From a virus: a stretch of DNA of 46,057 nt. Under the pieces are notes generated by a model that did not search any database, was not told the origin of the DNA, and saw only the letters and a program-made list of their open reading frames with translations. Numbering within the stretch: position 1 is the stretch's first letter; each line of letters starts with the position of its first letter. Shown here in pieces: positions 14,930 to 29,646 of the stretch. The stretch covers positions 1 through 46,057 of IMG/VR virus record IMGVR_UViG_3300005529_000056. One strand, written 5' to 3'. The position numbers and the translations under genes are program-made.

Positions 14930-16306
14930 TTAACCTATCTCTTCGACAATCACATTGGAGTTTGTAGAATTTGGAGAGTGCACTTTTGCCAAGCGGACGT
15001 TAATCCCATTCCATTGATCTTGGTCTTTCTCACAAACCCAAAATTTTCGTCCTAGAGATTTGGCTGCGGCCGCCACTACTCCCGACCCCGCATAGCAGTC
15101 CAAAACTAACTCCCCTGGAACCGTCGAGAGTTCGATTAGTTCTTTAATGAGTTCAATAGGCTTCTCCGCGATATTCGTCCGCGCCGAAGACGGCACGGAA
15201 TCGTAGATAAAAACATTCCCTCCAGAACGCTTTTGATTAAGACGTCTCGTCCGGTTTGAGATAAACAAGATGGGCTCCCATTGATTAGCATAACGGAAGT
15301 CCCAATCAACAACGGAACCAGTATTTTTGACCCAAACAAGTGGAATTGGATCGACGTCAAAACCGAGACTGTCGAATATTCCTTTTGTCTCGACCCACAT
15401 TTTGATACCGAAGAAGACGTAAATATGTGCATTGTCTTTTGCGACTCTTTGTAATTCCTTGGCTACGAGACGAAGGTGCGCCATCGCGGCAACAGGATCG
15501 TCGTCGAAGTGAAGGTTTTCATACCGACCTATTCCCCCAGGTTGGAGAACACCATATGGCGGGTCAATGATGATACAGTCAGCAAATTTATCGGGGAGTT
15601 TTTCGAGTTCGACAAGACAGTCACCATGAATGATCTGTCCACGATCTTCGACATGTCCGGCTTTCTTAAGACGGCGCATGTCCCATTCACGTTCGAGCTC
15701 CTCTAGACGGCGATCGATACGTCGAAAAGCGTCAGAGACGCTATCACACTCTTTGAGTTCAGGCATTATGTCAAGACACGCTGCAAGAGCGAGATCGCGA
15801 CTCACACGTGATTGATCGACACCAAGAAGTTCTGCGGTCTTGGTTTGGTTCCAAACTGGAACTTCTCGAATGGGGAGAATACGACCTTCGACTCCATCTT
15901 CGGTAATGGTGCCTGTGAAGTTGTGTGAAGTCGAGGGGAGTGCGGGCTCGGTTTGATTGGCGTATCTGGCGAGTTTGAGTTTGTGAATTTCCTCAGTCAG
16001 ACGGACACGTTCGTCCCACTCTAGATCTTTTCGTTGGATGTTTTCTTCGAGTTCAATTTCTCTGGCCTTGATTTCGTCGACTTCGTCGATGTAAAGAGCA
16101 TGTATACGAGGTCGATTAAGTTCTTGATGTGCGCGAAAACGGCGGCCGCCAGCAAGAAGGTTGTTGTCACGGTCCAGAAGAATGGGTTCAAGACAACCGT
16201 CATATCTAGTGATCGATTCTTTGAGGGCCTCGATGTCACCATAGTCTTTTCTAAACCGTTCGCCGACCTTTATTTCGCGGAGTAGGACGTCGTGAAAGTT
16301 CATCAT
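14930..16306 (-). CDS. ParB-domain / DNA methyltransferase fusion
   Basis: The N-terminal ParB-like domain has LLAGGRRFRAHQEL (50-63) and ENIQRKDLEWDE (89-100). It is followed by a helix-turn-helix (TKTAELLGVDQSRVSRDLAL, about 155-173), as in ParB/KorB proteins. The C-terminal half is a beta-class N6-adenine or N4-cytosine methyltransferase: DPPYG (about 248) comes first and the SAM-binding LDCYAGSGV (about 400) second. The domain order suggests a sequence-specific binder that methylates DNA, either to protect against host restriction or to mark phage DNA. It ends in VEEIG, the C-terminal peptide shared by several early proteins. Start ATG 16306 has GGAG seven bases upstream. Confidence 0.85.
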   Translation of the reverse strand: MMNFHDVLLREIKVGERFRKDYGDIEALKESITRYDGCLEPILLDRDNNLLAGGRRFRAHQELNRPRIHALYIDEVDEIKAREIELEENIQRKDLEWDERVRLTEEIHKLKLARYANQTEPALPSTSHNFTGTITEDGVEGRILPIREVPVWNQTKTAELLGVDQSRVSRDLALAACLDIMPELKECDSVSDAFRRIDRRLEELEREWDMRRLKKAGHVEDRGQIIHGDCLVELEKLPDKFADCIIIDPPYGVLQPGGIGRYENLHFDDDPVAAMAHLRLVAKELQRVAKDNAHIYVFFGIKMWVETKGIFDSLGFDVDPIPLVWVKNTGSVVDWDFRYANQWEPILFISNRTRRLNQKRSGGNVFIYDSVPSSARTNIAEKPIELIKELIELSTVPGELVLDCYAGSGVVAAAAKSLGRKFWVCEKDQDQWNGINVRLAKVHSPNSTNSNVIVEEIG

Positions 16307-16457
16307 TTAAGTACTCCAAATACATTGCCTTTTTGAGTTCGTGCCATTTTCCAAGGACTCCGTGGCGGCGTTTCCATTTCCGACCCCAGATCATGTAGTA
16401 TACTTCTCGAAAAGAAAGGCCGGTCTTAAATTCGTCATAAGACATTAATGTAGACAT
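16251..16457 (-). CDS. Small conserved-looking phage protein (68 aa)
   Basis: The sequence MSYDEFKTGLSFREVYYMIW followed by KRRHGVLGKWHELKKAMYLEYL has the look of a small tryptophan- and lysine-rich phage protein seen next to replication genes. I know no function. ATG 16457 directly abuts the stop of the 49-aa gene upstream. Its 3' end overlaps the methyltransferase start by 56 bases, an unusually long overlap for this genome. Confidence 0.6.
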   Translation of the reverse strand: MSTLMSYDEFKTGLSFREVYYMIWGRKWKRRHGVLGKWHELKKAMYLEYLNDELSRRPTPRNKGRRTV

Positions 16458-16607
16458 CTACCTCGTCTCAGGAGTACTTTTGACTGTTAGATCTATACCT
16501 GAAAATGGGTTTTCTACCCTGAGTGTGATGATATAATTTGTTCCTAGTTGGCGCTGAAGTCGGTCGACTATTATCTGCATTTCTGGAAGAATTTTTTCGT
16601 CAGACAT
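16458..16607 (-). CDS. 49-aa hypothetical protein
   Basis: ATG 16607 is preceded by AAGGTAG about nine bases upstream, and the stop is adjacent to the next ATG at 16457. The product begins MSDEKILPEMQIIVDRLQRQ and ends VKSTPETR; it is a short amphipathic helix followed by a strand-like segment. Function unknown. The ribosome site and exact abutment argue that it is real despite its size. Confidence 0.55.
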   Translation of the reverse strand: MSDEKILPEMQIIVDRLQRQLGTNYIITLRVENPFSGIDLTVKSTPETR

Positions 16608-16623
16608 AAATTATCTACCTTGT

Positions 16624-17025
16624 TCAATTTGGTGATGAAAAGATAAGACATGGTGATGCATCTGGACATTCCAGAAACCCACCAAAAATACCGACATTTG
16701 GCGGTATCGTTAGGGGATGATCGAGTTTGATGAGTGTATGTGGTGGTAAGAGTATTGAACAATTTTCTTGCCCCGCTTGGAGTAGTGCGTGTTGTATGGC
16801 CTCTGTGAGATTAGAGGTTGTAGACAAAATAGTGGAAATTACACACGTATCTCTGTCTGTCTCTAATTCGTTGAGGACTGTAAGTTCGTCGGGTAAAGAT
16901 CTTCGACCAGCAAGATCGTTGTGAGGTCGTTGATGAGTAATGATGGAGTAGAGTGTCATAATAACGAATATCGATATTGTGAGGATTTCTAGCCAAATAT
17001 CCCAACGATTTTTGTAAATCGACAT
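16624..17025 (-). CDS. Single-pass membrane protein (133 aa)
   Basis: One transmembrane helix at about residues 11-29 (WLEILTISIFVIMTLYSII) is followed by a polar domain with three cysteines and a segment (CSILLPPHTLIKLDHPLTIPP) that resembles the first rungs of a pectate-lyase-like beta-helix. The charge pattern puts the C-terminal domain outside the cytoplasm. No family was recognised. It could act on the host envelope or in exclusion of other phages. Confidence 0.5.
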   Translation of the reverse strand: MSIYKNRWDIWLEILTISIFVIMTLYSIITHQRPHNDLAGRRSLPDELTVLNELETDRDTCVISTILSTTSNLTEAIQHALLQAGQENCSILLPPHTLIKLDHPLTIPPNVGIFGGFLECPDASPCLIFSSPN

Positions 17026-17034
17026 AATCTTGGT

Positions 17035-17274
17035 TCAAGGTCGCAGGGTGGGTTGACTAACTTCAAGTCGGCCCGTCTTTCGACGGAGGTGTTTGAATTC
17101 TTCTTCGACGAGTTCGATTGAGTGGAAAATTTCATTACAAGCCACACACTTCCGTCTACGACGGATTATGTTAAGGCCCTTGAACTCGGCTGGAATCCCT
17201 GCTGGGTGATCGTGTTGGTAGGTATTGAGGTTGATAATTCGCATGGATTGACAGACGGGATTTGGACACTTCAT
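17035..17274 (-). CDS. NrdR-like zinc-ribbon protein without ATP-cone
   Basis: The N-terminus MKCPNPVC and the later RRRRKCVACNEIFHSIEL closely follow the zinc-ribbon domain of the ribonucleotide-reductase repressor NrdR (CPxC, then RRRRxCxxCxxxFxTxE). At 79 aa there is no room for NrdR's ATP-cone, so only the DNA-binding half is present. It may bind the phage genome or the host's NrdR boxes. It lies just downstream of the structured gene-free stretch (17281..17640). Confidence 0.6.
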   Translation of the reverse strand: MKCPNPVCQSMRIINLNTYQHDHPAGIPAEFKGLNIIRRRRKCVACNEIFHSIELVEEEFKHLRRKTGRLEVSQPTLRP

Positions 17275-17280
17275 CTCCCT

Positions 17281-17640
17281 AACCTCACCTCAGCTCATTA
17301 TGCAAATTGCATATTTTCTTGCTTTGTGTCTTTGAAAGAGGGCACGGGAGAGGTGTTCGATCTAGGGGAGAGGTGGACCCTCGCAGGTTTCTTAGTGACC
17401 TGTCGCATTACCTCATACCCGTGCCCGAAATGTTGGGCTCCCGCCCAGGGCGCACGACGGGAATTAAGCCTTGGATTTTACGTCTAGCCAAAAGCAACCT
17501 CACAGAGGAAATCCGTCCTTACGGCACCCTCTCTTGCAGTGGTTTCAGCACTGCGGCGCGTTAGCATCAACCGCCCGACGATAGGGCAAAGGCAGGTGAG
17601 CTAAGTGCGAAGTAATTCTCGCGCGTTATTATCACGCCTC
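17281..17640 (-). ncRNA. Candidate structured noncoding RNA (gene-free 360 nt)
   Basis: No minus-strand frame of useful length exists here, although genes on both sides run on the minus strand. The stretch is richer in G and C than its neighbours and holds several hairpins: CGTGC/GCACG closing a TGGGC/GCCCA stem at 17420-17456; CCTC/GAGG at 17498-17508; CCGT/ACGG at 17513-17524; GCAGTG/CACTGC at 17536-17554; GCGA/TCGC at 17607-17622; and GCGT/ACGC at 17623-17637. It does not match RNase P RNA, tmRNA or rRNA as far as I can judge by eye. The dispersed palindrome lies at its downstream end. The strand is assigned from the flanking operon. Confidence 0.35.
17299..17313. repeat. Dispersed 15-bp palindrome, site 2
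   Basis: TATGCAAATTGCATA, a perfect palindrome in the gene-free stretch upstream of the NrdR-like gene. Read on the minus strand, its flank ATAATGAG matches the flank of sites 4 and 5, so this copy is inverted relative to them. Confidence 0.75.
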
Positions 17641-17642
17641 CT

Positions 17643-18185
17643 TTACAGCGGTGCCAATGCAACGACCTCGTTGTAATCACGGTCGTTGAACTTTCTCACT
17701 CCATACCGAACCTTGCACCTCTTCCCAACCCACAAACTAAAATTCGGGGCCTCGCCAGGATCGTATTCGATGTTGGCGATGCGCTGATTGGTGTCGGGAT
17801 CGACGAAGATCATCGATCCTCCCTGATTGACCCGCTTGAACGGTCGACTGACTAGCTTACCATTCGGGGTCGCGGTCCAAGGGAGTTTCAGCGCATCGAT
17901 GAATTCGAGGAGAGCACGAATAGGCATGTCCTTGCCCTCTTTCGTTTTCCCTCCGATCATCAAGATATGACCGATGTTTCGTTCGAGATTTCCGATCCGA
18001 CGACCTTTGTAAGGCCCCTCGTCAATCTCGAACTCGACCACGAACATGGGATTATTTCCCGTGCCGTCGTCGTTTGTCTTTGAGTTCGTCAACTTAATCC
18101 CACTGACGTGGGACATGAAGAACTCGTCGCTGGAAAAAGCGGTTGTCAGTTCGGTTGCAGAGGCATCACTCTTTATTCTAGACAC
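17643..18185 (-). CDS. Putative ssDNA-binding protein (DUF669-like)
   Basis: 180 aa with FEIDEGPYKGRRIGNL (about 52-67), a pattern seen in DUF669-type phage proteins encoded with recombination genes, and a C-terminal strand-rich part ending KRCKVRYGVRKFNDRDYNEV. Start GTG 18185 has GGGGAG seven bases upstream. It is the first gene after the promoter/operator cassette at 18280..18362 and sits beside a Sak4-like ATPase. A single-strand-binding or recombination-accessory role fits, but the family assignment is only moderate. Confidence 0.55.
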   Translation of the reverse strand: MSRIKSDASATELTTAFSSDEFFMSHVSGIKLTNSKTNDDGTGNNPMFVVEFEIDEGPYKGRRIGNLERNIGHILMIGGKTKEGKDMPIRALLEFIDALKLPWTATPNGKLVSRPFKRVNQGGSMIFVDPDTNQRIANIEYDPGEAPNFSLWVGKRCKVRYGVRKFNDRDYNEVVALAPL

Positions 18186-18279
18186 TTATTTTCTCCCCGC
18201 TCACGCGGTCTCATTGACGGCTTACGTACCGTCGGCGCTCTTGCTTGCAGCCCACTTTTTGTTCTTGTCCTTCTCCTTT

Positions 18280-18362
18280 CTTATCTATGAGATTAGCAAA
18301 ATTTGCTTGCCCTAGGCAAATTAGAAATTCTAATACTTCTTCAAGCGAGACTCAAAAAATCC
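18280..18362 (-). repeat. 83-bp duplicated promoter/operator cassette, copy 1
   Basis: Identical by eye to 21444..21526. It contains three neighbouring palindromes (AGCAAAATTTGCT 18295-18307; TTGCC/GGCAA 18307-18319; ATTAGAAATTCTAAT 18320-18334) and a minus-strand promoter. It lies about 95 bases upstream of the start of the 17643..18185 gene. The far end would encode GFFESRLKKY plus stop, the exact C-terminus of the gene at 21494, showing that the copy was taken from that locus. Confidence 0.85.
18327..18355 (-). promoter_or_regulatory. Sigma-70-type promoter within cassette copy 1
   Basis: Read on the minus strand: TTGAGT (18355-18350), 17-base spacer, TAGAAT (18332-18327). The -10 box matches five of six consensus positions and lies inside the palindrome ATTAGAAATTCTAAT, so a bound repressor would block it. 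It should drive the putative ssDNA-binding gene. Confidence 0.6.
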
Positions 18363-18387
18363 TGGAATAGAAAAATTTGCTTCTAAT
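18363..18387 (-). repeat. 25-bp repeat shared with 30781..30805
   Basis: Begins TGGAATAGAAAAATTTGC and ends TTCTAAT; identical to a stretch upstream of the RHH gene. Read on the minus strand it carries inverted TTAGAA/TTCTA half-sites like those of the neighbouring operator, so it may bind the same regulator. Confidence 0.6.
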
Positions 18388-18402
18388 CATGAAGTGAATA
18401 AT

Positions 18403-19278
18403 TCATTCCACAACCAGGTCGAAATCTTGGTCGATGTAAAGAGGTAGACCCTCTTTTAGCCGAGTCCCAGCACTTTGGATATACGCTCCATCGGGAGAGG
18501 TACACCATTGGTATTTGCGTTCGTTGGTCGAGATGGACTCAACATTTGTATAAAGAATGGCCCCAAATTCCGCCCCGATCGTAAATGCCAGTTGTCCCGT
18601 AATGACGGGAAGGGCTGCGATCACACCAGTGATCTGTGGGTCGATGGCCCGTCCACCCTTTGGTTGGGCTGGCATTCTTACTGTTCCCATTGAAAGTTGT
18701 TGATGAAAGAGCCAGACGGTGAAACAGGGGAGAGATACCATCGATCGTACGCACTCAATCAACTTCTCCATTTGAGCCCCGAATTCGGCCCTACCGTCAA
18801 CTCCTACTCCACCAAGGACTTTATTTCTCGTCCCCAAAGTAAATTCGAGGACAATATCTTTGAACGTGGTAGCGCTGTCGACAACGAGGGCATAGGGGGC
18901 TTCGTCGAGATAGTTGGGAGACCATGTCGTGCCGTCAGGTTCGAGCATGTCGTAGAAGTGGTTGACGTGATTCATGAATTCGAGAAAGCGATCTGTACCT
19001 GTTGGTTTGGAAGCTTGATTCGAGAGTCTGTTACCGGAGGCACGGTCAAAACGAACAATTCTGACTTCTTCGGCCCAGCCTTCTTGTTCGGCGATACGGA
19101 TTAGAGGTTGACAACCGCGATCGAAGTCGTAGACATAGAGTTTGGTCCCTTGAACCCAAGGTCGATTACGGAGTTTATGAAGGGTTGCAAGAGAGCGAGT
19201 CTTGCCGGTCTTTGGGGGACCGACTATGGCAAAGGAGGTGTATTTGAGTTTGTCTAATTCGGTAGTAGAGAATTGCAT
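18403..19278 (-). CDS. Sak4-like RecA-fold ATPase
   Basis: Walker A GPPKTGKT (about residues 20-27), a DFDRGCQPL strand and Walker B ALVVDSATTF (about 130) match phage AAA/RecA-like proteins of the Sak4 type, single-strand annealing or recombination ATPases. I prefer ATG 19278, which has GGGTGA six bases upstream, over the adjacent GTG. The cluster of PD-(D/E)XK nuclease, small protein, this ATPase and a likely ssDNA-binding protein forms a compact recombination unit next to the replication genes. Confidence 0.75.
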   Translation of the reverse strand: MQFSTTELDKLKYTSFAIVGPPKTGKTRSLATLHKLRNRPWVQGTKLYVYDFDRGCQPLIRIAEQEGWAEEVRIVRFDRASGNRLSNQASKPTGTDRFLEFMNHVNHFYDMLEPDGTTWSPNYLDEAPYALVVDSATTFKDIVLEFTLGTRNKVLGGVGVDGRAEFGAQMEKLIECVRSMVSLPCFTVWLFHQQLSMGTVRMPAQPKGGRAIDPQITGVIAALPVITGQLAFTIGAEFGAILYTNVESISTNERKYQWCTSPDGAYIQSAGTRLKEGLPLYIDQDFDLVVE

Positions 19279-19284
19279 CACTTT

Positions 19285-19476
19285 TCACCCAAGCTCATCG
19301 ACCTCGACAATTGGTTGAGGAGATACAGTTGTAGGTTCAATTGTGACCTCGATTGCTTGAGGCATTGGGGTCCAAGTGCCCTTTGCTATATATATTGACT
19401 TGCAATAAGGGCTTGTATCGGTGGTGTAGACCACTGTGCCTGGAGTTAGTTTCTTCTGAGTCATGACGATCTTCAC
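19285..19476 (-). CDS. 63-aa protein ending in the shared C-terminal peptide (VDELG)
   Basis: GTG start overlaps the stop of the nuclease gene (GTGA). The first half looks strand-rich (GTVVYTTDTSPYCKSIYIAKG), the second half is Pro/Thr/Val-rich and flexible, and it ends EVDELG. No family recognised. It is placed between two recombination genes, so a small adaptor carrying the shared tail is a possible reading. Confidence 0.6.
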   Translation of the reverse strand: MKIVMTQKKLTPGTVVYTTDTSPYCKSIYIAKGTWTPMPQAIEVTIEPTTVSPQPIVEVDELG

Positions 19477-20489
19477 AGTTTTATACTCTCCTTTATCCGG
19501 TCCTCCTCTTGGACCGTTTGTTTCTGTACTTCATCGGGGATTTCATCGACGTTTGCGAGAGGATTCCATGTATTTGGTTGAAAGGCTCTCAGGGTAGTGG
19601 AGTTGATGCCGAAGTCACAAAGGGCATAGTAGGCACAAAGCCCGTAAGTGGTACACTCTTTCGTGTTCTGGTAGAATTGATTGAGGTCGACCTTGATGGG
19701 GTTGTAGTCTTCGTCACGTTCTATAACCCCCAAACGTACAAGTTGACGCCAATATTCTACGATGTTGATGGTTTGGAGTCTCCAATCTTCAGTCTGTTTT
19801 TGAGACTTGAAATAAAAATCTCTAAGAGCCTCTCTCGTTTTGGCTGCGACACTGACGACGTCAGGTATAACACCTGCAGCGATGACCCCTGGAAATTGAC
19901 GCGCACACCAAAGATAGCCAGTGGGTTGACGAGAGAGCTTGAGTTTCTTAAGTTCTCGACTTGCCCCACCACTTGTTGTCTTTGTCTCTCGAATCCAAAA
20001 GTCTCCATAACGAAGACGCTTGTGAATTCCGTCGATTCGAAAGGTGTACCAGAAGGGTTTGAAATGGAAAGGGTCAGTGGGTTGGGGTTTGATTTCAATG
20101 GCTCCGGCCAGTTCGATCTCGACAGGTTGGAGAAGTTCGTCTTCGGCGAAATGGGTGTCGAAGTAATGGTCGAGCATCAAAACCCCAGCATCCCGAGAGT
20201 GTTTGTTGTCGAGTTCTTCAGCTCTGGGACCTTTGAATAGTTTCTCGTGTAGGGAAAGAAATGCTCGAAAGGCTTTGAGTCGGCGTTTTTCTTCTGGACA
20301 CTTATTCCACCAGAGATAATAACTAGCAATCCCTGCATGAATACAGGAGCCAAAGTCAGCACCTGGCCCGACTCCCATCGAGAGATTGTAGACGCGGGAG
20401 TAGAAGGCTTTTCTTGGACAAGAAAGGACGAGATCGAGGAATGCATTGTCATACCATTCTTTGTCGCGAATGAAGTCAGACAATGACAT
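19473..20489 (-). CDS. PD-(D/E)XK nuclease with Cas4/AddB-like iron-sulphur cysteines
   Basis: The N-terminal LSCPRKAFYSRVYNL holds the first cysteine, GSCIHAGIASYY the conserved His, DGIHKRLRYGDFWIRETKTT the D and ExK catalytic residues, and SRQPTGYLWC the Q-x3-Y motif. Three cysteines at CTTYGLCAYYALC near the C-terminus complete the four-cysteine cluster typical of Cas4 and AddB nucleases. It is likely a 5'-3' exonuclease for recombination or host DNA degradation. ATG 20489 is chosen because GGGGAGG precedes it; an upstream in-frame GTG at 20507 would overlap that site. Confidence 0.8.
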   Translation of the reverse strand: MSLSDFIRDKEWYDNAFLDLVLSCPRKAFYSRVYNLSMGVGPGADFGSCIHAGIASYYLWWNKCPEEKRRLKAFRAFLSLHEKLFKGPRAEELDNKHSRDAGVLMLDHYFDTHFAEDELLQPVEIELAGAIEIKPQPTDPFHFKPFWYTFRIDGIHKRLRYGDFWIRETKTTSGGASRELKKLKLSRQPTGYLWCARQFPGVIAAGVIPDVVSVAAKTREALRDFYFKSQKQTEDWRLQTINIVEYWRQLVRLGVIERDEDYNPIKVDLNQFYQNTKECTTYGLCAYYALCDFGINSTTLRAFQPNTWNPLANVDEIPDEVQKQTVQEEDRIKESIKL

Positions 20490-20811
20490 CTTTGAAAGCC
20501 TCCCCACTCTTTTGGACGAGGTATAGTTGGTCGTAGGGAATGAGTAAGAATTCTTCTCCGTCGAGATAGAGTTTGTGGTCGACGGCTACGAATTTTTCAA
20601 AGACAACATCATCACCCACTTCTATGTCGAGAGGGGAAAAGAGACGAGTCTTGCGGTTTCTGTAACCTGGTCCAACAGCGAGAACTCGACCAATCTGGGG
20701 GAGTTCACGGGCACGGGCTGGGAGGATAAGTCCCGACTCCCGTGCCTCGACTTCAGGCCAGCGTTTGACCAATACTCTAGGACCGAGAGGTCTAAATTTA
20801 ATGATACTCAT
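20476..20811 (-). CDS. groES: GroES-type co-chaperonin (Cpn10)
   Basis: The 111-aa sequence follows the Cpn10 pattern: IKFRPLGPRVLVKRW at the start, a mobile-loop region EVEARESGLILPARAREL, then IGRVLAVGPG, DIEVGDDVVFEKF and LIPYDQLYLV at the end. ATG 20811 sits inside the 3' end of the upstream gene. Phage GroES proteins such as T4 gp31 replace host GroES so that host GroEL can fold the capsid protein. No GroEL is present here, so host GroEL is the expected partner. It is in the early block rather than beside the capsid gene. Confidence 0.85.
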   Translation of the reverse strand: MSIIKFRPLGPRVLVKRWPEVEARESGLILPARARELPQIGRVLAVGPGYRNRKTRLFSPLDIEVGDDVVFEKFVAVDHKLYLDGEEFLLIPYDQLYLVQKSGEAFKDVIV

Positions 20812-21028
20812 GGTAGTCGTCGAGTTCTTTTTGCTTTGCAATCCACTCGGTTATAACAAGTGTCCCCGTATCGCCACCTTCATAGACCTCACTGTCCTCG
20901 TGAATTTGCGATTTGGGAATCCACACCTTACGATCCTCAATCTGACAAAGAATGGCCTTTTCGGTCTCCCCGACGACAGAGACATCATCTATATATACGT
21001 AGTTGCTTTTTCTCATTTTGCTTTTCAT
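20798..21028 (-). CDS. Small phage protein (76 aa), strand-rich
   Basis: The segment KAILCQIEDRKVWIPKSQIH followed by GDTGTLVITEWIAKQKEL resembles a small hypothetical protein common in phage replication regions; I do not know its function. Two starts are possible (ATG 21028 or 21016). Its stop overlaps the GroES start. The upstream gene overlaps its 5' end by 44 bases. Confidence 0.55.
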   Translation of the reverse strand: MKSKMRKSNYVYIDDVSVVGETEKAILCQIEDRKVWIPKSQIHEDSEVYEGGDTGTLVITEWIAKQKELDDYHEYH

Positions 21029-21206
21029 ACCCCCAAATGAGCCCAGAGACCCAATCTACTACATGATTAGTACAAGCATACTCCGCGATCTCTCCTGGGA
21101 CATCAATGAACCATGCTGGAGTGGTAGAACAGAAAGCGTTGAGACAGCGTTTTACAGGAGTTGGCCACTTGGGCGGGTCGTAGGGACGAATAATCAAAAT
21201 GTCCAT
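20985..21206 (-). CDS. Hypothetical protein (73 aa)
   Basis: ATG 21206, with GGAG about eleven bases upstream. The product begins MDILIIRPYDPPKWPTPVKR and is rich in Trp, Cys and Pro. No family recognised. It follows the DEIG-tailed 68-aa gene and overlaps the next gene. Confidence 0.45.
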   Translation of the reverse strand: MDILIIRPYDPPKWPTPVKRCLNAFCSTTPAWFIDVPGEIAEYACTNHVVDWVSGLIWGYEKQNEKKQLRIYR

Positions 21207-21223
21207 CTTTGGATTTTCTCCAG

Positions 21224-21430
21224 TTAACCGATCTCGTCGATGTTAACCGGTCCCGATGATGTACTCGAAGACCTCTTTCGTGGGGCTGTAGTCGTGGTAC
21301 CACGGGCTCCGCGAAGTTTTTCAATCTCGGCAAGGAGTTCGTCGTCGGTGAGTTCGGAAACGGGACGTGAAATGAGTTTGGGTTCGACCGTGATGTCAGT
21401 GCCGGTCGAAGTGCTTGATAGTCGAGACAT
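21224..21430 (-). CDS. 68-aa largely disordered protein ending in NIDEIG
   Basis: First gene after cassette copy 2, with AAGGAG and AAGGAA upstream of ATG 21430. It has a short helix SELTDDELLAEIEKLRG (about 27-43) flanked by Ser/Thr-rich and basic segments (PRKRSSSTSSG), and ends VNIDEIG. A disordered linker with an acidic tip resembles an interaction hub or adaptor. Function unknown. Confidence 0.6.
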   Translation of the reverse strand: MSRLSSTSTGTDITVEPKLISRPVSELTDDELLAEIEKLRGARGTTTTAPRKRSSSTSSGPVNIDEIG

Positions 21431-21443
21431 TGTTCCTTGGCTC

Positions 21444-21526
21444 CTTATCTATGAGATTAGCAAAATTTGCTTGCCCTAGGCAAATTAGAAATTCTAATAC
21501 TTCTTCAAGCGAGACTCAAAAAATCC
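21444..21526 (-). repeat. 83-bp duplicated promoter/operator cassette, copy 2
   Basis: Same sequence as 18280..18362, 3,164 bases away. Palindromes lie at 21459-21471, 21471-21483 and 21484-21498. The far half overlaps the 3' end of the zinc-ribbon gene 21494..21706, coding its last ten residues, so this is probably the original locus. Confidence 0.85.
21491..21519 (-). promoter_or_regulatory. Sigma-70-type promoter within cassette copy 2
   Basis: Minus strand TTGAGT (21519-21514), 17-base spacer, TAGAAT (21496-21491), with the -10 box inside an operator-like palindrome. It lies inside the end of the upstream coding region and should start a transcript for the DEIG-tailed 68-aa gene and the genes after it. 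Confidence 0.6.
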
Positions 21527-21706
21527 AACATCTACCGATTCGATATGCAATTTGCATAAGATGAGGTCTTCTTGACTAAGAAGAAAGTCCTCAGGGCGGA
21601 GGCCGGCTCCGCTAGATGTCTCGATTGGTCTTAGACAGCAAGGACTTAAATAGTCGTTGGTTAGTGAGTCTAGAAGTCTATGACAGCGAGAACAGAACAT
21701 GATCAT
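21494..21706 (-). CDS. Zinc-ribbon protein (70 aa)
   Basis: Begins MIMFCSRCHRLLDSLTNDYL followed by SPCC, a CxxC...CC metal-binding pattern. The coding region holds dispersed palindrome site 3 and its 3' end lies in the duplicated cassette. Start overlaps the stop of the gene upstream (ATGA). No specific function recognised; it belongs to the unusually large set of small zinc proteins in this block. Confidence 0.6.
   Translation of the reverse strand: MIMFCSRCHRLLDSLTNDYLSPCCLRPIETSSGAGLRPEDFLLSQEDLILCKLHIESVDVGFFESRLKKY
21544..21558. repeat. Dispersed 15-bp palindrome, site 3
   Basis: TATGCAATTTGCATA, a perfect palindrome, here inside the coding region of the zinc-ribbon gene and only about 25 bases upstream of the cassette promoter's -35 box. 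That position could let a bound protein influence the promoter. Confidence 0.7.
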
Positions 21707-22053: not shown

Positions 22054-22056
22054 TAC

Positions 22057-22737: not shown

Positions 22738-22746
22738 GACACCCCC

Positions 22747-23070
22747 CTACACCTTTCCCACCCCAGAAGGATCTTTTCTCCAGTCTCGCAATCGAACCTT
22801 CTCCCATACCTCATTGACCACGGTCGTGAGATCGTATCCTCGACAAGTGCAATAGTCCATGAGGAATATGACTATATCCCCAATTGCATCACGTTCCTTT
22901 TCGATGTGGTCTTCTTCTGTACGAATATTCTGTTTTCTCTTGAGAACGGCATGACAAAGTTCACCGACTTCCTCGATGACTCCGAGAAGTGGGTGATCGG
23001 TGTTGTGATGAGGAAAGTTAGCCTGTACCCATGAAGCATTTTCAGCCTGAATTTCTTGTATTGACTTCAT
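22747..23070 (-). CDS. mazG: MazG-like nucleotide pyrophosphohydrolase
   Basis: 107 aa with LGVIEEVGELCHAVLK and later EKERDAIGDIVIFLMDYC, giving the ExxE...ExxD magnesium-binding pattern of all-alpha NTP pyrophosphohydrolases. Phage MazG proteins hydrolyse (d)NTPs or lower ppGpp to adjust host metabolism. The size matches single-domain MazG. Its start overlaps the stop of the upstream gene. Confidence 0.8.
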   Translation of the reverse strand: MKSIQEIQAENASWVQANFPHHNTDHPLLGVIEEVGELCHAVLKRKQNIRTEEDHIEKERDAIGDIVIFLMDYCTCRGYDLTTVVNEVWEKVRLRDWRKDPSGVGKV

Positions 23071-23699
23071 TTTTCTGACTCTCCTTTGGTCTTAAAAAGT
23101 TGCTTACCGTAGTTGTCAACCTCTTCCGCTGTGAAAGACTGAATCTCGTTCAGTAGAGAAGAGAGGTCTTCTTCCTTTATGTCGCGAGGAACCCCTGCTG
23201 GAGTCGCGTAGTGAATGAAGAAATAAGGACGGGTAGGGGATTCAAATTTGATCGGGGCGAATTGTATCTTGCCGTCTTGGTCGACGACTGAAGCCCCGAA
23301 TCCGTTTTCGAAACGGTAGATACGATGTTTGCCATTACGTGATTGCCACCACGTCTCATTTTCCACTCCCTTTTTCACCCCTTTGTCCAGTTTGTCCAGG
23401 TCTCCATATTCAGCATCAAAATCACCTCGGAGCATTTCACTCGACGGTCCCTCGCCGGCGCGGTCGGGTAGGTTGACACCACGAGAGCGAACGAAGGCAC
23501 GGGCTTGCTCGCGGGAGTGATAGTTGTCGGAGTGGTCTATGAAACCATGACCAATATTAGGAATTTTCTTATCCACCTCAGAGAGGTTATTGATGAGGTC
23601 TGCGTGGGTTTGCCCTATCCGGCCCCGCACTATTCGACCATCTCTTAGGTCGATTGCAGGACCAAGAAGATGTTGTTGAAGAGCTTCACTCATTTTCAT
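23067..23699 (-). CDS. Hypothetical protein (210 aa)
   Basis: ATG 23699 is chosen because GAAGGGAG lies just upstream and it avoids the 55-base overlap that the longest frame would have. The sequence GHGFIDHSDNYHSREQARAFV (about residues 70-90) and a Lys/Asp-rich middle are distinctive, but I know no family. The C-terminal 60 residues are helical and acidic. Confidence 0.5.
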   Translation of the reverse strand: MKMSEALQQHLLGPAIDLRDGRIVRGRIGQTHADLINNLSEVDKKIPNIGHGFIDHSDNYHSREQARAFVRSRGVNLPDRAGEGPSSEMLRGDFDAEYGDLDKLDKGVKKGVENETWWQSRNGKHRIYRFENGFGASVVDQDGKIQFAPIKFESPTRPYFFIHYATPAGVPRDIKEEDLSSLLNEIQSFTAEEVDNYGKQLFKTKGESEK

Positions 23700-23725
23700 A
23701 AACTCAAATTCTCCCTTCTTATAAA

Positions 23726-24190
23726 TTACTTCTTCGTACTTCGTGCTTGACAGACTTGAGAAAAGATCAAGTCGACCCATTTTCCGTAGAAGTTCCAGTC
23801 AATCTTCATTTTCAGGGCAAGGGTCTTCTCGACAGCCTCTGCGAGCTGGTGGGCGACGTAGTATGGAGCGGCAAGGTGATCTCCAGGTTCGCCATTGTCA
23901 CCAAATTGACGATTTTTTTCAAACTCCATGTCGAATTCGTCGACATCTTGTTGACTAATACCCATATGAAGACATATCTCAGCCTCGATTTGTTCGTGAG
24001 TTAGAAGGAGAAAGAGAAGATCAGGACGTTCATGTACGAAGGGGAGATCAGGGTAATAAAGGTGAAGGGTTTTTTCTTCTTTCTCGTCTGTGGTGACGAC
24101 CCAATCAGCGACCGTATTGTACCTCATTTCTGAGGGTGGGAGAGAGTTTATGTCGATCGCGGAAAAGAGAAATGAGTTTGGTTTTGACAT
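23726..24190 (-). CDS. Hypothetical protein (154 aa)
   Basis: A globular-looking acidic protein with VADWVVTTDEKEEKTLHLYY near the N-terminus and a helical C-terminus (APYYVAHQLAEAVEKTLAL). No known motif. Located mid-operon; spacing to the next gene is normal for the block. Confidence 0.5.
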   Translation of the reverse strand: MSKPNSFLFSAIDINSLPPSEMRYNTVADWVVTTDEKEEKTLHLYYPDLPFVHERPDLLFLLLTHEQIEAEICLHMGISQQDVDEFDMEFEKNRQFGDNGEPGDHLAAPYYVAHQLAEAVEKTLALKMKIDWNFYGKWVDLIFSQVCQARSTKK

Positions 24191-24196
24191 CTGTTT

Positions 24197-24514
24197 TTAC
24201 CTCTTTCTGTCTCGTCTGTTGACGAGAGCGCCCAATTCATGAACCAACCCATCAAGTTCTCGAAGTGAGGTCTCGATGGTCGGGGGAAGGCCGCAAAAGC
24301 CGTCGGTTTCTAAGAGGGTCTTGAGACGTATTCGGACTCGGAGTAGATCGCGAGCGACGTCGGTTAGGTTGGAGCGTTTGTTAATGACTCGAAGAGATTT
24401 GAGTTTATATCCCCCAAAAATTGTGAGTTGGGAGACAACACGTGAAGCCTGAAGTCGGGATCGGGCCTCGTATTCGAATAATGTCCCGTCACTGAAGACT
24501 GCTCTATATCTCAT
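24197..24514 (-). CDS. Hypothetical protein (105 aa)
   Basis: ATG 24514 follows AGAAGGAG, so I prefer it to the longer frame from 24580. The N-terminal strands MRYRAVFSDGTLFEYEARS resemble small phage proteins that fold as a beta-hairpin sheet. The C-terminus is a basic helix (LVNRRDRKR). Function unknown. Confidence 0.5.
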   Translation of the reverse strand: MRYRAVFSDGTLFEYEARSRLQASRVVSQLTIFGGYKLKSLRVINKRSNLTDVARDLLRVRIRLKTLLETDGFCGLPPTIETSLRELDGLVHELGALVNRRDRKR

Positions 24515-24516
24515 GT

Positions 24517-24720
24517 TCAAGACTCCTTCTCTCTTTGAACTTTCTTTTCGCGACCAAATTTTCGGCGAGGGTTTTTGCATCTTCGAAGGAACGAAATTTC
24601 TGATACTCTCCCCACTTTTCTAACTTTGAGGACTGTATTAGGGTCCCCACTCCAGACCATCCAGAATTCAGAAGTCTCTTTTTGTTTGTTGATCTTTTGA
24701 CTCTTTTCTTGTTTCTTCAT
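24517..24720 (-). CDS. Small basic hypothetical protein (67 aa)
   Basis: ATG 24720 is preceded by GGAGGTG and overlaps the stop of the 41-aa gene upstream (ATGA). The middle holds EFWMVWSGDPNTVLKVRKVG and the ends are Lys/Arg/Glu-rich. No family recognised. Confidence 0.5.
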   Translation of the reverse strand: MKKQEKSQKINKQKETSEFWMVWSGDPNTVLKVRKVGRVSEISFLRRCKNPRRKFGREKKVQREKES

Positions 24721-24842
24721 GACCACCTCCAATTTCCTGTTTTTTTGACAGTGACTTGTCCTAGGGATTCAAGTCTCTCTATTGTCGAGAGAAGAAGCCA
24801 ACAACGGAAACGTTCGTTGATGATGACCTCGAAAAGTTTCAT
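24717..24842 (-). CDS. 41-aa protein downstream of the lysozyme
   Basis: Begins MKLFEVIINERFRCWLLLST. Both ends use ATGA overlaps: its ATG shares bases with the lysozyme stop, and its TGA with the next ATG. That double coupling makes a real gene likely. The short hydrophobic stretch (CWLLL) is too brief for a clear membrane helix. Function unknown; its position next to the lysozyme hints at a lysis-related role. Confidence 0.5.
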   Translation of the reverse strand: MKLFEVIINERFRCWLLLSTIERLESLGQVTVKKTGNWRWS

Positions 24843-25285
24843 TCTTTGAACCCAGGATATTCACCGGTGGATATCATGTGGGCTATGTCGTCGACCCTAG
24901 TAGGTTGTACTTCTTGAGCCCACTGCGAATTGCGTATTTCCCTAGCCGCCTTTTCCCAGTCTTTCTGTTGAATCGCCTTGATCGTCTCGACGAATTTGTC
25001 AAGACCTGCTGTCCCGAGATTGAATGCCAAGTCTCGTATGGCATCACATTGAGCTTCAGTTGCGTAGTATAACATCTCGACAAACCAATCACGCTTCCAA
25101 AGCTGGCGCTCGACCTCGGCAAGGTCACTCTCAAGGAGAGAATCTATAATAGGGGAAGGAAGACCGTGGATTGAGAGATTATGCCCTACGCCGATAGTTA
25201 TGAAGCCTTTGGTGTCGGTATAAGGAAATCGACGGATTCCTTCATGTGTTATGAGGAGATTTTTTAATGCTGAGTTTGTTTTCAT
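24839..25285 (-). CDS. T4-type lysozyme (GH24 endolysin)
   Basis: The catalytic triad spacing equals that of T4 lysozyme: Glu15 in THEGIRRF, Asp24 in YTDTKG and Thr30 in FITIGVGHNL (T4: Glu11, Asp20, Thr26). 148 aa, no signal peptide, so it would need a holin to reach the peptidoglycan. It is encoded in the early block on the strand opposite the holin and spanin candidates. It cleaves the MurNAc-GlcNAc bond at lysis. Confidence 0.9.
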   Translation of the reverse strand: MKTNSALKNLLITHEGIRRFPYTDTKGFITIGVGHNLSIHGLPSPIIDSLLESDLAEVERQLWKRDWFVEMLYYATEAQCDAIRDLAFNLGTAGLDKFVETIKAIQQKDWEKAAREIRNSQWAQEVQPTRVDDIAHMISTGEYPGFKE

Positions 25286-25316
25286 CTTTTTGACCTTCTT
25301 ATTTGGTGTGAAGCAA

Positions 25317-25772
25317 TTATCTGTCAGACACAGCCTTTCGTGCCGCGTCTATATCGGCGAACATTTGTGTTAATTGTGTGTTTAGTGCGCGCGCCTCGGC
25401 TTCCGACAACCAGATTGTCCGCACGGCATCCTTGCCGGTCGGGTACGTCGCGAGCTTTCCTCGCTGCACCACAATCAGGGTCGATACTGGTTCGCTGCTG
25501 TCGAAACTGACCGCGAGACCTGTTTCGGCATCGGCTGCCTGTTGCCACTTTATTACTTGCGTAATTGTCAATGTACCCATCTGTCTTAATCCCTCTGACT
25601 CCGGACATTTTGAATTCTCGCAGACTTGACTGAAGTAATGTGGGTATACGTGGTTACCCGCAAGACATTCTTCAGTCAGGTCCGGAGAGCCACAATCCAA
25701 ACACCACGCTCCTGGCCAACCACTGAATCTGTGATTTGTTTTTGGATATTCGGTTATCATGTCATAATACAT
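25317..25772 (-). CDS. Zinc-finger / unknown two-part protein (151 aa)
   Basis: The N-terminal half has cysteines in GAWCLDCGSPDLTEECLAG and VCENSKCPE, probably a zinc-binding unit. The C-terminal half (ITQVIKWQQAADAETGLAVS onward) lacks cysteines and its DNA is visibly richer in CG dinucleotides, as if joined from another source. ATG 25772 has GAGG nine bases upstream. No known family for either half. Confidence 0.5.
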   Translation of the reverse strand: MYYDMITEYPKTNHRFSGWPGAWCLDCGSPDLTEECLAGNHVYPHYFSQVCENSKCPESEGLRQMGTLTITQVIKWQQAADAETGLAVSFDSSEPVSTLIVVQRGKLATYPTGKDAVRTIWLSEAEARALNTQLTQMFADIDAARKAVSDR

Positions 25773-26112
25773 TATTCCGAACCTCATTAGTCCATTTACC
25801 TACGAGCCAACGAAGATCGTCCAAGTTTGGATTTAGCATGGTTATCAAACGTAGAGGAGAGCACGAAGGAAACCCAAGAATGACTAGAGTCTCTCGGGAC
25901 CAAACATTCAGAACCAAATCGGTTTTGGCAAGGGACCACTTCAACGTCATGTGATCACTTGCCAGATCGTCGCACAGAGCAGTAAATTCAGGAAGATAAT
26001 CAAAGTCGTCGGGCAGCAAAACTAAAACTTGCGCCACATTCTCAAACACTGAGACAGGTGGTTTGTGCTTACGGACCATTTCCATTATCCCGTGAAAAAT
26101 TTCGCCCCTCAT
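25762..26112 (-). CDS. Hypothetical protein (116 aa)
   Basis: I choose ATG 26112 (MRGEIFHG) because GGAG lies seven bases upstream; the longer frame would overlap the previous gene. Contains VFENVAQVLVLLPDDFDYLP and LDDLRWLVGKW. No motif recognised. Ends inside the start of the zinc protein that follows. Confidence 0.5.
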   Translation of the reverse strand: MRGEIFHGIMEMVRKHKPPVSVFENVAQVLVLLPDDFDYLPEFTALCDDLASDHMTLKWSLAKTDLVLNVWSRETLVILGFPSCSPLRLITMLNPNLDDLRWLVGKWTNEVRNNVL

Positions 26113-26125
26113 ACCTGTGCTCCAC

Positions 26126-26521
26126 TCAAGCAAGAAGATCGTCAATGACCTCATCCTCGTCGCTTTCTTCGTCCCAGAATATTCCGGTTTCGAGAAGGAA
26201 AGCTATTTGGTCAAAGGTTAGTTTATGTGTGTCATTTGCCGTGCCGAGGATGTCACACGAACCCTTTTTCAGTCCGAGGGCGGTTTTCAGCACCTCGGGA
26301 AGTTGGTAGAGTTCGTCGAGATATGATACGGCGTCTATAGAAGAGACAAACTCTTGAGCTTCGTCTGGAAGTAGTATATGGCATGCAACCCCCATACAAC
26401 AAAATGCTTCCTGTCGTTCTTTTCCTTCTCCATGAAGAAGGTGTAGATAACCAACTCCCTGTCGGTATGGTCCATGCCTAAGTCCCTCAATCCACTTTTG
26501 ACGCGCCTCTCTTCTAGTCAT
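26126..26521 (-). CDS. FCC-type phage protein, paralogue B (131 aa)
   Basis: The pattern MTRREARQKWIEGLRHGPYR, GYLH, AFCCMGVACHILL and LTFDQIAFLLETGIFW is shared with the gene at 28857..29288, so the two are paralogues. Similar proteins (W..ALRSG.Y.Q, YCCLGVLCDL) are frequent in phages but have no known function. The paired cysteines and His suggest metal binding. The C-terminus is acidic. Confidence 0.65.
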   Translation of the reverse strand: MTRREARQKWIEGLRHGPYRQGVGYLHLLHGEGKERQEAFCCMGVACHILLPDEAQEFVSSIDAVSYLDELYQLPEVLKTALGLKKGSCDILGTANDTHKLTFDQIAFLLETGIFWDEESDEDEVIDDLLA

Positions 26522-26554
26522 AATTTACTCCCTTTTTCCTCCTTCAGGTCGTTT

Positions 26555-26827
26555 TTAGACATTCCCATAATAAATTTGCACGGTCTTTTGTGCGGACCGT
26601 GCAAGGATCTGTTCAAGAGTTTTGACCATTGTCCATTTCCCGTGGGGAAAGTTACGGGATGAGTCTTTGAGGTGTTTGACAAGTTCGAGGAGCCAGGCCA
26701 GGGTCCGGACCTCGGACATTTCTTCAATGGAGAAGTCAAATTCGTTTGCGATTTTGTAGAGAGCTGATAGACTCTCCGGCCGCAACTCTATCGACAAATC
26801 TACGTGAGGGGCAGTGCCGTTTTTCAT
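26555..26827 (-). CDS. Hypothetical protein (90 aa)
   Basis: ATG 26827 is preceded by GAGGAG, which is itself the coding sequence for the Glu-Glu of the upstream protein's EEIG tail. Helical, with ELRPESLSALYKIANEFDFS. No family recognised. Confidence 0.5.
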   Translation of the reverse strand: MKNGTAPHVDLSIELRPESLSALYKIANEFDFSIEEMSEVRTLAWLLELVKHLKDSSRNFPHGKWTMVKTLEQILARSAQKTVQIYYGNV

Positions 26828-26828
26828 C

Positions 26829-27197
26829 TCAACCAATCTCCTCTATTTTATTCGCGTCTATTGACGACGATTTACTCTTTGTCTCAGAAAAAGTAGGTTT
26901 TGATCGTGGTTGATGTCCTTCGCCCATGACTACGAAGTGCTTGTCGCGGGCAAAATAATCACCCCGAAAACCGCAGGTACAGTAATAAATTTCCTTCAAT
27001 TGGTGTTCTGCCTCGACAGCGGCCCGCCATCTTTGATTGGACTCTCTAAGTCCGGATTCAAGGGGGGTGATTACGAATTGGTAATAATGATCGGGACACA
27101 TCCCCGAAGTCTCGTCAAACCCCATTTTGCCGCAGAACTGGGTGCAGGGACCAGAGGGCTTGGCGAGGGTTGTGGAGTGGAAGAATTTACTTTTCAT
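26829..27197 (-). CDS. Zinc-finger protein with EEIG tail, paralogue B
   Basis: Cysteine clusters CTQFCGKMGFDETSGMCPDH (about 18-37) and YYCTCGFRG (about 72-80) suggest two zinc sites. The shared segment VITPL and the layout match the gene at 29290..29646, so they are paralogues. The basic, Ser/Lys-rich linker ends DANKIEEIG. It lies two genes upstream of FCC paralogue B; the other copy lies directly upstream of FCC paralogue A. Confidence 0.65.
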   Translation of the reverse strand: MKSKFFHSTTLAKPSGPCTQFCGKMGFDETSGMCPDHYYQFVITPLESGLRESNQRWRAAVEAEHQLKEIYYCTCGFRGDYFARDKHFVVMGEGHQPRSKPTFSETKSKSSSIDANKIEEIG

Positions 27198-27459
27198 GTC
27201 TTTTACTCAAGTGATTAATCATAGAATTACGTCGTTTGACGCAATCAAGATATACGAGAAAGACCGCCTTGATTTGTTCTTGAGTCGGTTGGAGAATCCC
27301 CTCTCTTTGACAGTAGAGATGAAGTGACTCTTCCCCAAGGGCCTCGATCCAAAGACGGAGCATGTCCTTGGCTTCGTTCAAGAGCCTGTCTACGTAGGTC
27401 GGGGTAGGCTCGTGGGTTCGAAGAAATTCGCGATATTGTTCAGGGGTGAAAAGTGGCAT
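27187..27459 (-). CDS. Helical hypothetical protein (90 aa)
   Basis: CGAGGTGAG precedes ATG 27459. Predominantly helical (EQYREFLRTHEPTPTYVDRL). Its 3' end overlaps the start of the zinc-finger gene by about ten bases. No family recognised. Confidence 0.5.
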   Translation of the reverse strand: MPLFTPEQYREFLRTHEPTPTYVDRLLNEAKDMLRLWIEALGEESLHLYCQREGILQPTQEQIKAVFLVYLDCVKRRNSMINHLSKRHEK

Positions 27460-27473
27460 TTCTCACCTCGCGA

Positions 27474-28247
27474 TCATCCAATTTCGTCAAGATCATTGGC
27501 ATCTTTACGAATTCTCCCTCTTGGGTAATTAGCCCTCATTCGGGAACCTTTTGGGGGAGTTGCGTTGGAGAAGTTCACAGTGTTCGAGGCATATTGTGGG
27601 GGTGGTGGAGGCGGTGGAGGAGGTGTCTTCCAATTTCTCCAAGCCGGATCGCTTGTTGGTTTATAACTTGCTTGAGGAGTCTCGATTTCTCCAAAGAGAC
27701 GATCGAGTACTTCTGCTCTCTTGATCCCGTATTGGATCATGAGTTGGTTCGCCTTGGCAAAGGCAATCTGTTCTTCCTCTGGACTAGAACCGTTTTTCTG
27801 GTTACGTCTCCTCAGGTGGATGATTATTTTTATCTTCTTACAACGAGGGCAATTGTCGTCGAATTCACTTGAGAAGAAGTTTGTCGAACAATTGGGGCGA
27901 TGTTTCAAAGGTTCAGAAAGGGGAGTTGTCGAGGTCGAGGATTGAGAAGATTGAGGGGTGCGTTTGAGGAAGACCTTGAATGAACCATTATTTTCGTCCT
28001 CAATTTTGAACTCGATCCCTTGAGTCTTTAAGTCTCGTCGAAGGTCGTGGAAAGATGAAGCGAGTTCTTTGTGAAGAATGGACTGTTCATTAAACTCTCT
28101 CTCCGCAGCGATGACTAAACGTTGGGCTGTGCTGAGTTTATCGCGGGCAGATTTAACGTCCAGACGAGATAAAGATAACGAAAGATATTTTTCCCGAATG
28201 AGTCTGACGACTGTCTGATCGTCTAAAAAGTTTGTATAATGAGTCAT
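27474..28247 (-). CDS. Coiled-coil / zinc / polyproline protein ending in DEIG
   Basis: Residues 1-85 are a coiled coil (SARDKLSTAQRLVIAAEREF); 110-145 contain NCSTNFFSSEFDDNCPRCKK, a zinc-binding pattern; a run of about nine prolines follows near residue 215; the basic linker then ends DANDLDEIG. ATG 28247 overlaps neither neighbour; the frame also has a TTG six bases earlier. Directly downstream of the vWA gene, so the two may form a complex. Function unknown. Confidence 0.55.
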   Translation of the reverse strand: MTHYTNFLDDQTVVRLIREKYLSLSLSRLDVKSARDKLSTAQRLVIAAEREFNEQSILHKELASSFHDLRRDLKTQGIEFKIEDENNGSFKVFLKRTPQSSQSSTSTTPLSEPLKHRPNCSTNFFSSEFDDNCPRCKKIKIIIHLRRRNQKNGSSPEEEQIAFAKANQLMIQYGIKRAEVLDRLFGEIETPQASYKPTSDPAWRNWKTPPPPPPPPPQYASNTVNFSNATPPKGSRMRANYPRGRIRKDANDLDEIG

Positions 28248-28249
28248 CT

Positions 28250-28864
28250 TCAACCCAAGGTGATGACGTTCTTCGTCGGCGCGGGCAGGGAAAGTAATTG
28301 GTTGATCTTGCCACCGAGGAGAAGAGGATTGTTTTGGGCGATGTCATATTCAACATATCGCCCGCCCCCGATGTTCGCGAGTTCGCGCATTAGATCTTTG
28401 GCTCGAACTGCATTTGAGTCTCCGATGAACATTGTGTCAATGACACAATCTTCAGCAAGGGCCTTTGCCGGTCTTAAGATTCGCTCGAAACCCCCATCAG
28501 ACTCTCCGTCAGAAATTACGAGTACATGGATGGGTTCGAGCTCCTTCGCCCGAATGAGGGCTTTGTCGAGACGGGTGCCACCACGGGGTTCGGGAATGAG
28601 GTCAGCGTCGACTTCTTCCCAATTGGAGTCGAAGGCTAGAACATGGATCTGACCCACGAGTGGGGCAAGGGCATCGCGGAGACAGTCAATACACCGACGC
28701 CCATCCTTGGCGGGGCCGGCCATTGAATAAGAGACGTCGGCTAAGACGAGATCGGCCCCTTTCGGGGTGATCTTGGTCATCAAGGCTCGCTGTTCGCGAG
28801 AGAGGAGTTGACCATCGGAGGTCTTGATGATCGAGTTTCGAAGTGTGACTTCGTTTTTACTCAT
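28250..28864 (-). CDS. von Willebrand factor A domain protein
   Basis: A complete metal-ion-dependent adhesion site is visible: DVSYS (43-47), the Thr of GGTRLD (97) and the Asp of VISDG (119). Strands and helices alternate as in vWA folds (ADLVLADVSYSM, IHVLAFDSN, IHVLVISDGESD, CVIDTMFIGD). At 204 aa it is little more than the domain, with no membrane anchor. In bacteria, free vWA proteins usually work with partner ATPases or zinc proteins. Here its neighbours are a zinc/coiled-coil protein and an FCC protein. Ends ITLG. Confidence 0.8.
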   Translation of the reverse strand: MSKNEVTLRNSIIKTSDGQLLSREQRALMTKITPKGADLVLADVSYSMAGPAKDGRRCIDCLRDALAPLVGQIHVLAFDSNWEEVDADLIPEPRGGTRLDKALIRAKELEPIHVLVISDGESDGGFERILRPAKALAEDCVIDTMFIGDSNAVRAKDLMRELANIGGGRYVEYDIAQNNPLLLGGKINQLLSLPAPTKNVITLG

Positions 28865-29288
28865 TGTTTTCTTCCTCTTTTTCGTTTTTGTTCTTTTTTG
28901 CTTGTGCTTTCAGGTCTTCAAGAAGTGGGGCGATGTCGACGTCTTCCGGAGCGTCACTCCAGAATAGCCCCGTCTCGAGTAGATAAGCGATTTGTCCGAA
29001 GGTCAGTTTTTCTTTGTCGTTGAGACATATTAGAATACTGATTTTTTTCTGGTCTAGACCGAGTATCTCAGCGAGTTGTGGTGGCATCGATCCGCCCTCA
29101 CCGAGATATGTCATAACTTGGGTACCGACGTCATATTCGACCAAGTCGTAAATGAATAGGTCACACGCGACGCCCAGACAACAGAAAGTAGGTTCTCTGG
29201 ATTGATCATGTAAATACCCATGACCTTGCTCGTAGTTCCCTGAATGTAATGCGTCGATCCACAGTTGACGAGCTTGTTTTCTGGTCAT
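28857..29288 (-). CDS. FCC-type phage protein, paralogue A (143 aa)
   Basis: Starts at ATG 29288 (MTRKQARQLWIDALHSGNYE), four bases after the zinc-finger stop region. Shared with the 26126..26521 protein: GYLH, TFCCLGVACDL and LTFGQIAYLLETGLFW. The C-terminal tail is Lys/Glu-rich and overlaps the vWA start. Function unknown in both copies. Confidence 0.65.
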   Translation of the reverse strand: MTRKQARQLWIDALHSGNYEQGHGYLHDQSREPTFCCLGVACDLFIYDLVEYDVGTQVMTYLGEGGSMPPQLAEILGLDQKKISILICLNDKEKLTFGQIAYLLETGLFWSDAPEDVDIAPLLEDLKAQAKKNKNEKEEENNE

Positions 29289-29289
29289 T

Positions 29290-29646
29290 TTACCCAATCT
29301 CTTCGATTTCGTTGGCCTCGACTTTGACGAAGCGTTTATCTTGACCATTCCGACTTGTCTTCTTCGCCGTGGGGCCAGGGCAGTCGGGGAGATGTGAAAT
29401 CATGGCGAGGCCGGTCTTGAACCTCTCCCCACAGACACATATGTGGAAGAGATTAAGATTGTTGTGGGAGTAGTGGGAGAGAAGTTCAAGCTTGGCCGTA
29501 AGCTCCGCGTCGATACGGGAAATCTCCTTGAATGTGGCCTCGCGAAGTTTGATCAGAGGCGTGATGACCAGTTTGTTGAAACAGGATTCACACTTCTGAT
29601 CGTAGAGTTCGATGGAAATTCGACTGCACGCACTACAGGGTTTCAT
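29290..29646 (-). CDS. Zinc-finger protein with EEIG tail, paralogue A
   Basis: ATG 29646 is preceded by GAGGAG. CSACSRISIELYDQKCESC (about 4-22) forms one zinc site, and CVCGERFKTGLAMISHLPDC forms a second, C2HC-like site. Shares VITPL and overall layout with 26829..27197. The basic linker ends VEANEIEEIG. The Glu-Glu codons lie ahead of the next ATG and may also serve as its ribosome site. Confidence 0.65.
   Translation of the reverse strand: MKPCSACSRISIELYDQKCESCFNKLVITPLIKLREATFKEISRIDAELTAKLELLSHYSHNNLNLFHICVCGERFKTGLAMISHLPDCPGPTAKKTSRNGQDKRFVKVEANEIEEIG

Follow-up and report, generated by a model that had tools for sequence, protein, structure and literature searches.

Phage T4 and the bacterial single-stranded DNA-binding protein SSB provide the closest described systems in which a short C-terminal peptide recruits proteins to a partner. 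The T4 proteins gp43, gp55, and gp33 carry C-terminal epitopes for sliding-clamp binding that are interchangeable in vitro (PMC2988020), and the acidic C-terminal tip of bacterial SSB (SSB-Ct), borne on a disordered linker, is bound by many partners and alone carries the binding (PMC7145534). Here we describe a short C-terminal peptide, or tail, shared by early proteins of the tailed phage represented by IMG/VR virus record IMGVR_UViG_3300005529_000056, an uncultured contig of 46,057 bases that was analyzed in its entirety (hereafter, the window). The tail ends seven, perhaps eight, early proteins, most of them unrelated, and we consider it probable (about 0.62) that it acts as a portable docking motif directing these proteins onto one shared partner.

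The first-pass annotation of the window had reported the ending (D/E)E(I/L)G on six early proteins, all of which are present exactly as quoted, on six minus-strand open reading frames (ORFs). The ending [DE]E[IL]G is found on six of the 57 curated genes of the window, whereas its frequency within proteins would give 0.03 (binomial ~1e-12; ~200-fold enrichment). The motif is better given in the wider form [ILV]-x-x-[IL]-Gly-COOH, with Asp or Glu preferred at position -3 and a hydrophobic residue often found at -7; in this form it ends 8/57 window genes (0.17 expected) and none of the 436 genes of ten more distant contigs. The LETIG ending of the first early gene, 31320, was rightly recognized as a tail, but its description as a weaker form does not hold; this protein is a full member, with a tailed orthologue in a related phage. 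The eighth candidate, the VWA-domain protein 28250, was missed in the first pass, and its membership, proposed from its ending, is doubtful because no polar linker precedes that ending and its orthologue in the related phage, 43% identical, has no tail (ending in SMVVKL).

That related phage, IMGVR_UViG_3300031718_000015 (50,494 bases, uncultured; locus L002, with the whole record as L015-L017), was found by a methyltransferase search of viral contigs and is hereafter called the sister. It shares most of the window genome, with shared proteins mostly ~35-78% identical, and was the one informative relative with an early region returned by scans of viral and genome contigs; three further relatives (L021, L022, and L023; capsid protein 75-82% identical) are 5-9 kb fragments holding structural genes only. 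Seven tailed window proteins have a sister orthologue, and in five of these pairs the orthologue keeps the pattern (Table 1); a homologue of 19285 is absent from the sister. In all, 6/83 sister genes end in [ILV]..[IL]G (0.18 expected), the sixth being the early orthologue of window gene 29746, which ends in SLNLKQLG where the window protein ends in DRYKIP and has no tail. The acidic pair, presented in the first pass as the conserved part, is the window phage's dialect only: the sister has GD, KD, SE, SS, and KQ at these positions, in a dialect of its own (LGDLG twice, LSELG, LKDLG, and LSSLG), and it is Phi..PhiG (Phi, hydrophobic) that is conserved instead.

Table 1. Tailed early proteins of the window and the endings of their sister orthologues
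Protein	Gene	Tail	Strand	Ending	Sister ending	Remarks
ParB-N6/N4 DNA methyltransferase	14930-16306	14933..14956	-	NVIVEEIG		No start codon near stop
63-aa protein	19285-19476	19288..19311	-	IVEVDELG		Stop at ribosome site of Sak4-like gene
68-aa protein	21224-21430	21227..21250	-	PVNIDEIG	PIKLGDLG (L017:12292-12507)	Downstream ribosome site separate
Zn-finger-like protein	26829-27197	26832..26855	-	ANKIEEIG	AIKLGDLG	
DUF2786-like protein	27474-28253	27477..27500	-	ANDLDEIG	RRTLSELG	Downstream ribosome site separate
VWA-domain protein	28250-28864	28253..28276	-	KNVITLG		Possible weak tail; doubtful
Zn-finger-like protein	29290-29694	29293..29316	-	ANEIEEIG	PISLKDLG	Paralogue of 26829
First early gene	31320-31841	31323..31346	-	AKTLETIG	PLNLSSLG	

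A motif-free scan, which took for each genome the commonest combination of three residue classes within the last six positions and compared it with internal 6-mers, returned the same top pattern independently in the window (p<1/300) and the sister (p=0.03), i.e., ILVM at -5, ILVM at -2, and Gly at -1. This pattern was top in none of 14 other genomes, two of which (G002 and G006) are overlapping and very similar; the pattern scored in G006 (p=0.01) traced to four late-strand ORFs unrelated to one another and was put down to chance. Across the 14 tails (eight from the window, six from the sister), wobble bases are free, with near-maximal entropy, all four Gly codons, and many Ile and Leu codons, bearing out the earlier remark that codons differ between copies. 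Chance, or a DNA segment recently copied from gene to gene, has nothing in its favor other than that the genomes are few; the ~200-fold enrichment, the codon differences among all copies, and the retention of the pattern in sister orthologues leave this explanation a vanishingly small probability.

The check proposed in the first pass, a comparison of tails with linkers at the C-termini of a related phage, separates the two. The linkers, which are mostly polar and often basic, have diverged until they cannot be aligned between window and sister orthologues, while the pattern behind them is retained. This retention, together with free codon choice and the presence of tails where no ribosome site is needed, upholds the claim that it is the peptide that has been conserved, as a shared tag.

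The embedding of ribosome sites, also raised in the first pass, would make the tail codons Shine-Dalgarno (SD) sequences, spacers, and stop/start overlaps for translation coupling, and the peptide a by-product. For 8/14 tails, the next start codon does lie within ~4 bases of the stop or overlaps it, and a GAGGAG- or GGAGA-like sequence often falls within the tail codons of these eight, the Glu-Glu or Gly-Asp codons being SD-like in several. An embedded site calls for a start a few bases past the stop at every tail, yet none is present at the stop of the remaining six, which still keep Phi..PhiG (four window tails, those of 14930, 21224, 27474, and 31320, and two sister tails, those of 34384 and 35885). 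These are followed by no nearby gene, by a gene 15-26 bases on, or by an apparent terminator right after the stop, as at sister 34384; 21224 and 27474 have separate downstream ribosome sites, as claimed in the first pass. The pattern persists in these six tails, so selection acts on the peptide as such. Furthermore, wobble positions are free, an SD sequence has no need of Ile or Leu at -2 and -5 or of a terminal Gly, and window and sister have different amino acids where the SD would lie. As a whole explanation this alternative is largely refuted and very improbable; as a partial one it stands, in that peptide and ribosome-site constraints may both act in the eight overlapping cases.

The tag is also separable from the proteins that carry it. 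With tails removed, 26829 and 29290 are paralogous (25% identity over 80 aa, E=3e-4), as had been stated, and no other pair of tailed window proteins matches at E up to 0.1. The 29290 gene may begin at the ATG at 29646, the end coordinate implied in the first pass, from near which its sister orthologue aligns. Ten methyltransferase homologues either end ~15 aa earlier or lack the motif. In an AlphaFold2 model of the methyltransferase built from 11 sequences (mean predicted local distance difference test [pLDDT], 74.7), residues 444-458 fall below a pLDDT of 50 and come after the last helix of the CcrM-like methyltransferase fold, the tail thus being modeled as a low-confidence extension past the folded domain. 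Given the homologues without the motif, this modeled extension, and the unrelated carrier bodies, the tail is a module whose gain or loss does not depend on the body. An AlphaFold2 model of 31320 from two sequences reached a pLDDT of only 39, and the tailed bodies tested against cultured phages (29290, 21224, 31320, and 27474) found no match there. The tag is real, shared, conserved at the peptide level, and separable from its bodies.

We read the tail as a [hydrophobic]-x-x-[IL]-Gly-COOH short linear motif, usually on a flexible linker. By way of it, at least seven early proteins would be docked at the same partner; they come from ~six unrelated families and comprise a DNA methyltransferase, the two Zn-finger paralogues, a DUF2786-like protein, and small proteins without a known role. 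This partner, probably a hub encoded by phage or host, would recognize the free carboxylate together with the terminal Gly and the hydrophobic positions -2, -5, and often -7. Between these positions, the residues change in concert among the proteins of a given phage, being acidic in the window and G/S/K/D/Q in the sister, as would be expected if a single binding site co-evolves with all of its ligands; partner binding, the single partner, and co-evolution are what we infer from the tails. In a bolder and only tentative form, the tail would be a phage-owned C-terminal address code, in which Phi-x-x-Phi-Gly-COOH is recognized by a single hub that brings unrelated early proteins together, the DNA methyltransferase among them, with code and hub co-evolving into one dialect per lineage. 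No report of such a tag was found in the literature, which was covered through open-access papers only.

On the best reading, the motif would work in the manner of the SSB tip or of the clamp-binding C-termini of T4, although its sequence matches neither. The T4 layout of a short hydrophobic and acidic end, found on several phage proteins behind a divergent linker, recurs here, although the acidity does so only partly in the sister; unlike the T4 epitopes, the tails end in Gly and have at least seven carriers. No sliding clamp was matched by Pfam among the window proteins scanned (several small proteins were not scanned, and a host clamp is possible). SSB-Ct ends in Pro-Phe, whereas 14/14 tails end in Ile/Leu-Gly, and the sister, unlike SSB-Ct, does not keep the acid pair. 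Moreover, SSB-Ct is one protein's tip read by many partners, whereas here many proteins carry the tip. The resemblance to the SSB tip proposed in the first pass therefore survives for layout but not for sequence or for carriers, none of the tailed proteins having a Pfam SSB match. The ORF at 17643-18185, which adjoins Sak4 and is an SSB candidate by position only, ends in NEVVALAPL without a tail. A further likeness is to the EEVD C-terminus of eukaryotic Hsp70/Hsp90, which is read by the carboxylate clamps of tetratricopeptide-repeat (TPR) proteins: the IEEVD-like layout of hydrophobic residue, acid pair, hydrophobic residue, and free carboxylate is a resemblance only, the tails having Gly rather than Asp at the end, and no TPR protein was found among the window proteins scanned.

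Gene position bears on two other functions. The late operon of the window runs rightward and its long early and replication operon leftward; the latter holds every tailed window gene, and no rightward late gene has a tail. A degradation tag (degron), by which an AAA+ protease of the host, or an adaptor, would recognize early proteins and make them short-lived, with lineage differences reflecting different hosts, would suit a C-terminal, portable, linker-borne peptide confined to early nonstructural proteins, and ssrA and other ClpXP C-degrons are likewise portable C-terminal tags. Known ClpXP C-degrons, however, have nonpolar ends such as LAA, or are MuA-like, and the Ile/Leu-Gly ends of the tails are neither; to our knowledge, no bacterial degron described so far has an unvarying Gly at its end, preceded by an acid. 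A shorter life would also bring a DNA methyltransferase no clear benefit, and we regard this function as unlikely. A capsid-loading signal would bring early proteins into the procapsid, to enter the next host with the DNA; T4 internal proteins are loaded in this manner through an N-terminal targeting sequence. Being portable and carried by a methyltransferase as well as by several proteins with no known role, the tag could serve such an end, and the capsid gene set is conserved between window and sister, but every carrier lies in the early operon, the proteins encoded beside the capsid gene have no tail, and there is no signal of a matching site, all of which make loading quite improbable.

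The invariant Gly-COOH could alternatively be ligated to something as a C-terminal modification, for which a PurD-like ATP-grasp protein, present in both phages and 62% identical between them, is the only obvious candidate enzyme. PurD, however, acts on free glycine, the PurD-like protein is also encoded by MW202796.1, a genome without the tag, and no E1- or Pup-ligase-like gene was seen among the proteins scanned; we hold modification to be extremely unlikely. The PurD-like gene (8926-10284, plus strand) stands at the end of the late operon, and its counterpart in MW202796.1 is 29% identical and unannotated there. A GroES-like co-chaperonin (Cpn10) with the mobile-loop sequence ESGLILPA is encoded at 20476-20841 (minus strand) and is 61% identical in the sister; MW202796.1 and vir526 (BK063670.1) have annotated chaperonin-10 genes as well. 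Both proteins were considered as docking partners and set aside, as both functions also occur in the tag-less MW202796.1.

Several points weigh against the docking of early proteins onto one partner. The tag is seen in two genomes only, both uncultured contigs, and 14 distant gene-order or capsid relatives show no comparable tag. The tail is not obligatory, as the methyltransferase, VWA, and 29746 orthologue pairs each differ in its presence. The class entropy of the 14 tails is zero at -1, -2, and -5, columns that belonged to the rule by which these tails were selected; positions -3 and -7, outside this rule, are also biased (p<0.001). Lastly, docking is a role assigned solely by analogy, no partner was identified, and comparing orthologues by net charge pointed to no clear co-varying partner. 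For most early phage genes no role is known, and the tag unites at least seven mostly unrelated proteins into what would be one functional set. The 8-residue peptide offers a direct bait for a common partner, and the lineage dialects would allow tests of specificity through tail swaps.

The replication genes of the window include a fusion of a uracil-DNA glycosylase (UDG) domain with PolA, a DUF3987 primase, the ParB-methyltransferase, the Sak4-like protein, and a PD-(D/E)XK nuclease. In the fusion (12187-14637, minus strand), the UDG-superfamily domain is N-terminal and is followed by a family A DNA polymerase with 3'-5' exonuclease; its neighborhood of ParB-methyltransferase, PolA, and DUF3987 primase recurs in many distant phages. 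Two minus-strand ORFs, 26126-26521 and 28857-29348, look paralogous by eye, both having an MTR(R/K)xAR start and an FCCxGVAC motif, and are found immediately downstream of, or close to, the two Zn-finger genes 26829 and 29290. That two paralogue-like proteins adjoin or lie near both Zn-finger paralogues suggests a duplicated gene block.
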